A stretch of 64,000 bases of DNA from Acidobacteriota bacterium (GTDB taxonomy: Bacteria > Acidobacteriota > Vicinamibacteria > Vicinamibacterales > UBA2999): contig CAUJDN010000066.1 of the NCBI GenBank assembly GCA_963169195.1, forward strand, positions 147,020 to 211,019, given 5' to 3'. Below the pieces are notes generated by a model. It was not told the DNA's origin, searched no databases, and saw only the letters and a list, made by a program, of their open reading frames with translations. Shown here piece by piece: positions 61,161-64,000 of the stretch; positions within the stretch are counted from its first letter, which is position 1; every line of letters starts with the position of its first letter. The position numbers and the translations under genes are program-made.

Positions 61161-61234
61161 GGCGCCGTCGCCAAGTGGTAAGGCAGAGGTCTGCAAAACC
61201 TCCATCCCCGGTTCAAATCCGGGCGGCGCCTCCA
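61161..61234 (+). tRNA. tRNA-Cys (anticodon GCA); probable integration site of the element to its right
   Basis: A 74-base cloverleaf with encoded CCA. The acceptor stem GGCGCCG pairs with CGGCGCC, the anticodon loop is CTGCAAA with GCA, and the T arm is CCCCG-GTTCAAAT-CCGGG. Everything to its right up to the window end is phage-like, so its 3' end is the likely attachment site. The second copy (attR) would lie beyond the window. It lies 114 bases after tRNA-Gly, perhaps on the same transcript. Confidence 0.97.
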
Positions 61235-61289
61235 ACTTTCCTGAGCAAATCAGCAGATCGCGGGTGACGCCAACGGGCCTGAGACGGCC

Positions 61290-61310
61290 AACTGTCACCA
61301 AACTGTCACC
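61290..61310. repeat. Direct repeat AACTGTCACC (twice, one base apart) near the element edge
   Basis: Two exact ten-base copies at 61290-61299 and 61301-61310, 56 bases right of tRNA-Cys. It could be an arm-type binding site for an integrase or excisionase at the left end of the element, or a remnant of an old integrase gene; there is no direct proof. Confidence 0.4.
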
Positions 61311-61369
61311 GCGCGGTCGCGGGGCTTGACCCGGCGGGTGTTGATGCTCTAATTCCCTCATTACGTTCC

Positions 61370-61392
61370 CTCGTCGGTCGCATGCCGACGAG
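61370..61392. other. 8-bp stem, 7-base loop hairpin near the element edge
   Basis: CTCGTCGG and CCGACGAG pair around TCGCATG. It lies just left of the terminator-like hairpin at 61404-61425. Together they form a two-hairpin element between the tRNA genes and the NYN gene. Confidence 0.5.
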
Positions 61393-61403
61393 CACTAGCA
61401 TCC

Positions 61404-61425
61404 CAGGGAGTCGCGAGACTCCCTG
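61404..61425 (+). terminator. Rho-independent terminator (9-bp stem, GCGA loop, TTTT)
   Basis: CAGGGAGTC and GACTCCCTG form a perfect nine-base stem around the tetraloop GCGA, followed by TTTTCATTT. It is the best intrinsic terminator of the window. It would stop transcripts that come from the tRNA genes and so insulates the NYN gene. Confidence 0.8.
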
Positions 61426-61490
61426 TTTTCATTTCTCCACGAATTCAACACCAAGTCGCGGCGCTGAGCAGGGCCGGCCGGGGGAACGAC

Positions 61491-62081: not shown

Positions 62082-62117
62082 GACTCCAGGTCGAACGACG
62101 ATCCGCCCGCAGCGGAT

Positions 62118-62381
62118 TCACGCATGCGGCGTACGGCGCTGGCGATGCGCAGCGAGCTGGCGCGCCAGATCCTGCAAGTGCCAGCGATAGATCGTCGCGA
62201 CGGCCTGCGACGTCCACAGTCGCGACGGCGGATCGCGGACGTCCCATGCCGGCAGCGGACCGGCCGCAGGCGTGGCCGACAGGGCCGCCGGGACCGCCGC
62301 CAGCACGGGATCGTCATCGGCGACGACGATCAGATCCGCTGAGACATCCGCCCAGTCGAGTCGCTGATCGTCGCGTCGCAT
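62118..62381 (-). CDS. Hypothetical small protein, last gene of the phage-like set
   Basis: An 87-residue protein without a recognised domain. It starts with 'RRDDQRLDWADVSADLIVVADDDPVLAAVPAAL' (region 2-34) and ends in a basic helix 'YRWHLQDLARQLAAHRQRR'. The start codon overlaps the stop of the upstream gene as TGATG (62379-62383), so it is translationally coupled. It ends 36 bases from the NYN gene stop, tail to tail. Confidence 0.6.
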   Translation of the reverse strand: MRRDDQRLDWADVSADLIVVADDDPVLAAVPAALSATPAAGPLPAWDVRDPPSRLWTSQAVATIYRWHLQDLARQLAAHRQRRTPHA

Positions 62382-62602
62382 CAGTCGCCCTGCCCTAACG
62401 CCCGTGGCGTGCGGGCCGACCGACGTGAGCTGATGTGCCACTTGCCGCACAAGCGACAGCGGTAGGCTTCCCCGCGCACGAACAATTGCCGTGCCCGCGC
62501 GTGCGCCGTGCGCTTGTTCGGCAGCTTGGCCTTGCCGTGGCAGGCTCTCGCTTCCGCCGCCGTGGGGCCGCTCGGCCGCTCGTAGCCCTTGTGCGCGCCC
62601 AT
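62381..62602 (-). CDS. Hypothetical small protein with zinc-finger-like motif (C-x2-C-x3-H)
   Basis: A 73-residue basic protein. The only motif is 'YRCRLCGKWHISSRR' near residue 49, a compact Cys-x2-Cys with a following His, common in small phage and mobile-element proteins that bind nucleic acid. ATG 62602 overlaps the previous stop as TGATG; GTG 62605 is one codon earlier and also possible. Coupled to both neighbours. Confidence 0.6.
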   Translation of the reverse strand: MGAHKGYERPSGPTAAEARACHGKAKLPNKRTAHARARQLFVRGEAYRCRLCGKWHISSRRSARTPRALGQGD

Positions 62603-63060
62603 CACGACATCTCCGACAGGGTCGCGATGTCGGCGAGCACCCGCATCAGTCGCGCGAGCGCCTCCGCTTCGCGCTGCACGAGATCCGCCCGGCGCCGATT
62701 CAGTGACGCGGCGTGGGCGGTGTGCTGCTGCTGCTCGTAGATCAGCGCCTCCCGCGTGCGCCAGCGCGCGGTGCCCTCGGGACTGTGGTCATAGTTGTCC
62801 ACGTCGCCCAGCGAGACGAGGGCGGCGGCGATCTGGCGCAGGCGGTCCGCCACGGGGGCGGCATCGCGTTCGAGCGCCGCGAGTCGCGCGGCGGCGGCGG
62901 CATGGAGTTGCTGCGCCTGTTTCAGCTCGGCGCGCAGGCCATCGAGCCGGTGGAGTCGCTGCACGCGGGCGCGGCGTTCGCGTTCGCTCGTGGCATCGAG
63001 CGGATCGGGACACGTCTCGCGCGCCGCGTCCAACGTGGCGAGGGCGGCGTCGGCCGTCAT
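62602..63060 (-). CDS. Hypothetical coiled-coil protein of the phage-like set
   Basis: A 152-residue protein that is almost all helix, Ala/Arg/Leu-rich with heptad-type spacing from about residue 30 to 150. A short break at residues 88-102 ('GDVDNYDHSPEGTARW') separates two helical halves. Such proteins occur as phage structural or scaffolding factors, but no family is recognised. ATG 63060 overlaps the preceding stop (ATGA). Confidence 0.6.
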   Translation of the reverse strand: MTADAALATLDAARETCPDPLDATSERERRARVQRLHRLDGLRAELKQAQQLHAAAAARLAALERDAAPVADRLRQIAAALVSLGDVDNYDHSPEGTARWRTREALIYEQQQHTAHAASLNRRRADLVQREAEALARLMRVLADIATLSEMS

Positions 63061-63314
63061 CGCGCACCCCCTGCCATCCGGACGCGCCATGTCGCCAACG
63101 CGAAGCGGAACGCGTCCGCCCGCGTGATGGTCGAGGCGGCGGGTGCGGCGGTCGGCGTCTGCGGCGCAGGCGGTGCGGGTGTCGCGGGCCGGGCCGTGGC
63201 CGTCGTCGTGCGGGCCTGTCCCTGCGGTCGGCACCGCGCGCACAGATACCTCGCGTCGTTCGTCGCGCAGCACGGTCGCCCGTCTGCGGTGCGTGTCCTG
63301 AATTTCGTCTCCAT
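63057..63314 (-). CDS. Hypothetical small protein with cysteine group, phage-like set
   Basis: An 85-residue protein with 'CCATNDARYLCARC' near residues 14-27, a possible zinc site, followed by a Thr/Ala/Pro-rich linker and a C-terminal helix. ATG 63314 is preferred over ATG 63329, as GGAGGA (63327-63322) lies at the proper distance for it. It overlaps the next gene by ATGA. Confidence 0.55.
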   Translation of the reverse strand: METKFRTRTADGRPCCATNDARYLCARCRPQGQARTTTATARPATPAPPAPQTPTAAPAASTITRADAFRFALATWRVRMAGGAR

Positions 63315-63373
63315 CTCGTGATCCTCCATCTGGTGTCCTGCCCATCGTGCGGGGTCGTCGTCGCCCTACTCGC

Positions 63374-63631
63374 CTACTCGCCCAGCAGCCGGCGCAGCCA
63401 GGCCGCGCCCGTCTGGGCCGATCCCGGCTGGCGCGCCTGTCGGAGCTGGCCCAGCAGCGCCCGGCGTCGCTGCTCGTCCTGCTTCGCCCGCTCTAGGGGA
63501 TACCGGCCCTCGATGATGTCGGCCGCGTGCGCGTCGCCCCGGCTGACGTGCGTCGGGATGCCGCTCGGTCGATGCCGGTAGATGCCGACGGCGTCCCACT
63601 CCGACTCGGGCAAGCGCCAGGGCGTCACCAT
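63374..63631 (-). CDS. Hypothetical small protein directly after the terminase gene
   Basis: An 85-residue protein starting 'VTPWRLPESEWDAVGIYRHRPSG' (region 2-24) with a basic helical end ('RAKQDEQRRRALLGQLRQAR'). No family is recognised. The ATG at 63631 overlaps the end of the terminase gene (stop at 63625-63627), so it is coupled to it. Confidence 0.6.
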   Translation of the reverse strand: MVTPWRLPESEWDAVGIYRHRPSGIPTHVSRGDAHAADIIEGRYPLERAKQDEQRRRALLGQLRQARQPGSAQTGAAWLRRLLGE

Positions 63632-64000
63632 ACGAGCCGCCCCGCCAACGCCCCGCCGTCGGTTCGCGCCACGCACGCCAGCAGCGCCCCCGCCGCGACG
63701 ACGGCCCGGTCATCGTGCGCCCCAGGCCGATGATCCACGCGGTCCCGGCCACTCGGCCCGCGCCGCCGCTCCAGCCCGCGTAACTCGCGCAGCGTCGCCG
63801 CGTCATCGAGCAGCGCCACGGTCCCGGCCTGCACGTGACTGAGCAGGTCGAGGTAGAGCGCACTGCGGTCGCGGTCCGCCGGGCGATAGCGCACGCCCCG
63901 GGCGCGGAACTGTTCGGCGACAAACTCCCCGGCATAGCGGTCGCCCACCACCTCAGGACAGCGGTAGCGCGTCACCAGCTCGCAGACTTCGGCGATGACA
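63625..64000 (-). CDS. Phage terminase large subunit, C-terminal nuclease domain (truncated by window edge)
   Basis: The reading frame is open to the last base; 124 residues are visible. The block 'CPEVVGDRYAGEFVAEQFRARGVRYRPA' (cited as a region), then 'SALYLDLLSHVQAGTVALLDD', 'ELRGLERRRGPSGRDRVDHRPGAHDDRAVVAAGALLA' (region) is the RNase H-like nuclease domain of the large terminase subunit (TerL/gp17 type): the Asp of VGDRYAG and the terminal HDD hold the metal. The ATPase part lies to the right of the window. It marks the beginning of a DNA-packaging or head module of a prophage or phage-derived element. An upstream GTG at 63975 is not the start, since the frame continues. Confidence 0.85.
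   Translation of the reverse strand, partial: VIAEVCELVTRYRCPEVVGDRYAGEFVAEQFRARGVRYRPADRDRSALYLDLLSHVQAGTVALLDDAATLRELRGLERRRGPSGRDRVDHRPGAHDDRAVVAAGALLACVARTDGGALAGRLVW

Follow-up and report, generated by a model that had tools for sequence, protein, structure and literature searches.

At the right-hand end of a 64,000-nt stretch of Acidobacteriota DNA (the window, to which all coordinates refer), one plus-strand gene stands alone between a tRNA-Cys and a tight set of minus-strand genes. What does it encode, and why does it lie there? An earlier note on this DNA had taken the tRNA-Cys for the edge of a phage-like element, and the gene, with a NYN nuclease-type domain split by a four-cysteine ribbon, for its cargo. 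Our analysis suggests that the window runs, at its right end, into an integrated element of satellite-like type, which probably continues on a second contig. On balance, we lean towards the view that the NYN gene of this element, predicted to code for a ribonuclease with a zinc knuckle, is likely to be exchangeable anti-phage cargo. Below, the genome is called G000 and the window contig C66; L numbers denote the loci compared.

The NYN protein and its family

The open reading frame (ORF) begins with GTG, and the start residue is common to many of the aligned homologues. The 196-residue product matches the Pfam NYN profile (PF01936) with an E-value of 1e-11 and a score of 45.9 bits, above the curated cut-off (24.2). 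When the window protein was aligned with 34 homologues (35 sequences in all), D8, D64, C95, C100, C107, C110, E119, D123, D148 and D150 were invariant. Position D129 held D in 29 sequences and E in 6. We take the conserved acids D8, E119, D123, D148 and D150 to map onto PIN-like sites, and the four cysteines are a putative zinc site. Judged from this alignment, acidic residues and cysteines form a conserved family signature, as the earlier note had supposed; only D129, among the residues it named, varies.

That note knew of no described family with this combination. The NYN part itself is known from Pfam, but the proteins with the four-cysteine motif form, by their sequences, an unnamed, coherent family across many phyla (229 homologues). 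In the literature covered (titles and abstract openings among those listed, subscription papers lying outside), no NYN protein with a four-cysteine insert appeared as a defence family. The window protein resembles the NYN/LabA-DUF88 proteins (PF01936; VPA0982, 2qip; MARF1 NYN) in its above-cut-off profile match and its fold. A weak profile hit (E 0.03) aligns the GDGDF of VPA0982 with the D148/D150 region. The four-cysteine insert at residues 95-110, and an existence as a stand-alone protein of 196 residues, set the window protein apart from this group.

Family loci came from GTDB contigs in many phyla (65) and from IMG/VR (one); L097-L100, which are weak partial matches, were dropped from the 65 in all family counts. 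All four cysteines were present in 58 of 64 ORFs, the other six being two fragments and four proteins without one or two aligned cysteines. The family is sparsely spread. Within the order, 2 of 162 genomes (G000 and G008) have a homologue at E below 1e-20, and 24 at E 0.001; at 1e-20, homologues were found in 15/396 genomes of the phylum and in 4/395 of a second phylum, to which a Gemmatimonadales genome belongs. Homologues, 29-36% identical and with the four cysteines kept, also occur on five plasmids (6.3-12.4 kb) from five genera. On the Paracoccus plasmid, methyltransferase and endonuclease genes lie 1.5-4 kb from the NYN gene. Beyond the NYN genes and antisense ORFs, neighbours are conserved in small groups only. 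L051 and L092 share, by eye, a block of a large methylase-like and an ATPase-like gene, 1-1.4 kb from the NYN gene, which we take to resemble Hma. In L057, a CRISPR-like array of 15 repeats (10600-11624, spacing 64-67 nt) adjoins the NYN four-cysteine gene. In L048 (Corallococcus), the NYN gene is about 7 kb from a tRNA-Pro, which an integrase match adjoins.

The base composition of the NYN gene looks foreign. Its GC content (57.2%) compares with 70.3% for the host and 73% for 62118-63999, and all 604 host windows of equal length in 1-60900 were GC-richer (mean 70.3%, sd 2.5). Across the family, gene GC was below that of the surrounding DNA in 56 of 58 loci, by 8.7 points on average, and below that of the plasmid stretch on all five plasmids. 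At fourfold-degenerate sites, which are independent of the protein, the NYN gene was below its median neighbour in 44/47 loci (mean 19 points) and was the locus minimum in 24; randomly chosen genes of comparable size were lower in 24/44 and lowest in 8. This count excludes nine loci that were partial or unclear, as well as those with fewer than four neighbours that could be used.

The element and its insertion site

The right end of the window is the end of contig C66, which cuts a terminase large subunit gene. At the start of contig C14 lies the N-terminal part of such a gene, whose reading frame runs off the contig end. Next come an ORF where a small terminase subunit would be expected (no significant match in a family search), a gene for an excisionase-like HTH protein, a tyrosine integrase and the tRNA-Cys 3' part once more, with an exact att core of 48 bp. 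In the relative L126, both terminase parts map to one gene, with identities of 82% and 86% (the latter by tblastn, for the C-terminal part at the window end) and 12 nt between them. Because both halves fall on this single gene, 12 nt apart, we infer that C66 joins C14. The element would then measure about 8.2 kb, about 2.8 kb on C66 and 5.4 kb on C14. In an empty-site synteny search, no match of the downstream genes beside tRNA-Cys in relatives backed this join. The comparison that gave the att copy also gave a match on C73 (72% identity), which was judged to be due to chance, since host-like genes surround it (by eye).

Thirteen ORFs picked as element genes were scanned against PHROGs. None matched a capsid, portal, tail or replication family; significant matches were to terminase, integrase, excisionase-like and unknown families only. 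We regard the element as satellite-like rather than as a full prophage because of its size of about 8.2 kb and the lack of a structural-gene match. Phage satellites, as described in the accessible part of PMC13376191, have in common with it a size of 7-20 kb, att boundaries, an integrase and the absence of structural genes. The window element differs in encoding its own large terminase subunit, and no replication gene was found in this copy; the relative L133 has AAA_25. A full prophage, with its structural genes in the contig gap, is very improbable: the element does span two contigs, and the HK97 capsid family (PF05065) does occur elsewhere in the genome (a single match on C61, none on C66 or C14), but the 12 nt between the terminase parts in L126 leave no room and Phage_portal (PF04860) has no match anywhere in G000, so this reading was rejected. 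The HK97-type capsid match itself (G000:C61:111728-112438) may mark a helper prophage.

The edge placed at tRNA-Cys by the earlier note thus stands as the end of an element: a search beyond the window, as that note had advised, found on C14 the attR copy, the integrase and the other terminase half. What changes is its kind, satellite-like instead of a prophage. L126, L127, L128 and L133 also combine a large terminase with an integrase and have no recognisable capsid gene (partly by eye, L126 and L127 lying near contig ends), and perhaps represent a recurring type of capsid-less terminase island. A search of 50,697 phage records with the L126 terminase gave 3 matches, all below 27% identity.

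Integrases of a single clade target this tRNA-Cys in related genomes as well. With a 35-bp query from the tRNA-Cys 3' part and up to 3 mismatches, this part was found in 114/162 genomes of the order, and a reversed control pattern in none among those listed. The set of 17 tRNA-Cys loci (15 plus L132 and L133) has two att copies on one contig in 13 cases and a tRNA-Gly/tRNA-Cys pair in 16; ten loci were annotated, L175-L181 (3.2-6.0 kb) being left out. Full-length integrases, 54-68% identical to that of G000, occur in L132, L133, L167, L169, L170 and L174 (the last with one att copy). L171 holds integrase remnants, L173 remnants only, and L168 and L172 gave no match. In a tree of 12 integrases, the seven from tRNA-Cys form one clade (95/96), apart from four at tRNA-Leu, and the G000 integrase is sister to that of L132 (99/98).

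The cargo at the tRNA edge differs between these elements. It is a TIR gene in L171 (Pfam 6e-10; PADLOC TIR-TM 3e-69), DUF4238 in L170 (2e-27; PADLOC 2e-18) and a PADLOC TIR effector in L169 (4e-9). L132 carries a restriction-modification pair (D12 methylase 1e-39; PDDEXK_11 5e-11) behind two unknown ORFs, one scanned with no match and the other left out of the scan. In L172 the cargo is a RES gene (6e-26), with Wadjet genes further in. The edge gene of L133 is a 308-aa ORF with no Pfam match of its own; it is probably TIR-like, by the Pfam labels of its homologues (PF13676 on 9/120 listed) and by eye. L167 has an unknown 140-aa ORF. As a plain tally, PADLOC matches below E 1e-8 were found in five of the seven elements with scanned tRNA-side cargo, and in three of the seven the gene adjoining the tRNA is the defence match. 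As in a defence hotspot, related elements thus carry different defence genes at a shared site, and the relatives at this tRNA-Cys support the earlier view of the NYN gene as edge cargo. In the other elements, GC of the slot genes was below that of the rest of the element in 6/8, with a smaller gap than for NYN in G000. Gene order varies: in L133 the integrase is on the tRNA side, behind the TIR-like gene, and in G000 it is at the far end. The P2/P4 anti-phage hotspots (PMC9122126, in its accessible part) likewise offer a small fixed slot, in a satellite or phage, with turnover of defence genes; in the present case, integrase elements of Acidobacteriota, some with a terminase, have this slot at their tRNA-Cys edge, and no helper is known. 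In L172 (G111:C14:1-15000), JetA, JetB, JetC and an SNF2 helicase gene were seen between two tRNA-Cys 3' copies, with no integrase match.

Possible roles of the NYN gene

The NYN gene is likely another anti-virus gene, because related elements at the same site carry known defence families, and defence by RNA cleavage appears to be the best reading. D8, E119/D123, D148 and D150 of the NYN fold would hold Mg or Mn and cut RNA, and the four cysteines would bind a single zinc, which would serve to position or recognise the RNA. By its fold and residues, the protein would be a metal-dependent endoribonuclease acting with no partner, and its zinc knuckle may be structural or RNA-reading. The gene would be expressed alone, with no antitoxin, from its own terminator-insulated site. 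On infection, the protein would cut phage or host RNA and stop phage growth, which would benefit both element and host. We advance only tentatively, as one possible picture, a broader proposal: that NYN with an inserted zinc knuckle is a new stand-alone, one-gene RNase defence, carried across phyla by small plasmids and by terminase islands that lack a capsid, and that the tRNA-Cys of this order is a defence-trading post of a single integrase clade.

Several observations weigh against a defence role. The PADLOC match to HEC-09, a candidate defence protein of similar size (profile length 203), has an E-value of 6e-10 and is restricted to residues 102-164 of the query, only 63/203 profile positions. 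In one Pseudomonas survey, HEC-09 was moreover correlated with phage susceptibility, not resistance (PMC12447246, in its accessible part). An integrase profile match was found in 2/63 homologue loci (an integrase near the homologue in L042 was added by eye), and many homologues have ordinary-looking neighbours (by eye). This is also the case for L219, the best homologue (65%) in the search of the Gemmatimonadales phylum, which has within 16 kb no tRNA and no match to other proteins of the window element. Homologues thus do not generally sit at element edges, a point on which the earlier note had asked for a count, although they do look foreign in composition. The search for NYN relatives among the 50,697 phage records gave no match. 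The slot of L167 holds an unknown gene, and those of L168 (where only a Gp49-like gene was scanned), L173 and L174 hold no scanned defence gene. Transfer between phyla has only moderate support because the family tree, which left out 8 partial rows, is partly clustered by phylum (23 phylum changes, where the fewest possible would be 16 and shuffling gives 37.4). Finally, PADLOC was run on random samples of neighbours of 100-700 aa (140 out of 157 near the NYN gene, 140 out of 249 far from it) and gave, at 1e-10, 63 families in the near sample and 29 in the far one; this is no clear enrichment, since nearly all families among the matches listed rest on one member.

The main rival is that the protein is an RNA-processing or decay passenger in the regulation of element or host (replication, copy number or LabA-like post-transcriptional control). 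It would suit the ordinary-looking neighbours of the chromosomal homologues and the small plasmids with few other genes, and the commonest source-database name is LabA/DUF88 family. In the accessible part of PMC11346440, a CRISPR-associated NYN ribonuclease, with the same fold and Mn-dependent in that system, is reported for RNA processing and not for direct defence; the words zinc and cysteine are absent from the main text, as accessible, whereas the window protein has its four-cysteine insert, and no CRISPR was seen at the window gene. The sparse spread, the family-wide foreign composition and the defence genes that related elements carry at their tRNA-Cys edge argue against such a passenger, which we consider unlikely.

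Still less probable is a toxin of an addiction module that retains the element in the cell. NYN and PIN folds are common toxins, the gene lies at the edge and one related slot has a RES toxin domain, but no plus-strand ORF of at least 60 aa lies wholly within 61239-61490. The 72-aa plus-strand ORF downstream (62124-62342) is antisense to the conserved gene o1 (Table 1) and is probably its shadow. In four of the five plasmids, no same-strand gene annotated in the (incomplete) gene tables lies within 300 nt of the NYN gene; the fifth has two, at about 100-140 nt. As to a packaging nuclease acting alongside the terminase, the NYN gene does sit in a terminase element and some phages use an extra nuclease beside the terminase, but such a role is highly unlikely, since the closest terminase relative found, L126, has another integrase in its place, the gene lies on the opposite strand with GC about 16 points below the terminase-side block, and no terminase-like neighbour recurs in other NYN loci.

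Layout of the window edge

Table 1. Features at the right-hand end of the window.
Feature	Coordinates	Strand	Basis or relative
tRNA-Cys (gca), integration target, intact copy at left edge	61161..61234	+	ARAGORN, Rfam tRNA
attL core of 48 bp, same sequence as attR (C14:5409-5456)	61191..61238	+	sequence comparison
Terminator-like hairpin, 9 pairs, tail TTTTCATTTC, upstream of NYN gene	61404..61425	+	consensus match only
NYN gene (196 aa, GC 57.2%), four-Cys motif inserted, cargo at element edge	61491..62081	+	
Codons C95 to C110 (C95, C100, C107, C110), putative zinc knuckle inside NYN domain	61773..61820	+	
Orphan o1, element core	62118..62450	-	59% to L126
Orphan o2, small protein with Cys pair, element core	62381..62605	-	62% to L126 over 47 residues
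Orphan o3, element core	62602..63060	-	63% to L126
Orphan o4, element core	63057..63329	-	51% to L126
Orphan o5, element core, overlaps terL	63374..63676	-	70% to L126
Terminase large subunit, C-terminal part, cut by contig end	63625..64000	-	N-terminal part C14:1-1026 (-)

The tRNA-Cys, the NYN gene with its cysteines and acidic residues, and the hairpin all lie where the earlier note had placed them. Its overlapping, terminase-led minus-strand set (62118-63999) was likewise recovered, from ORF overlaps at 62381-62450, 62602-62605 and 63625-63676 and from tblastn of the terminase part; the o3/o4 overlap (63057-63060) depends on the start codon chosen in the analysis. The PHROG and Pfam matches of o2 are all weak. 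The hairpin is weak evidence alone, because the 3.1-kb stretch has two such sites, against a mean of 1.2 in shuffles. Only tRNAs passed the gathering scores in the Rfam scan, and ARAGORN places a tRNA-Gly at 60972-61046. GC-rich repeats of 33 and 43 nt were seen at 60259-60496, between aminotransferase and yraN-like genes, and at 61075-61107, between the two tRNAs.

Altogether, this locus offers a candidate defence gene that is apparently partner-free and has a clear signature, four cysteines inside a NYN fold. It also suggests a simple route to more such genes, through the genes closest to tRNA-Cys in genomes of this order. Terminase-bearing elements with no recognisable capsid genes are pointed to as carriers of defence in Acidobacteriota, and the phage collection searched holds almost no relatives of their type of terminase (3/50,697 records).
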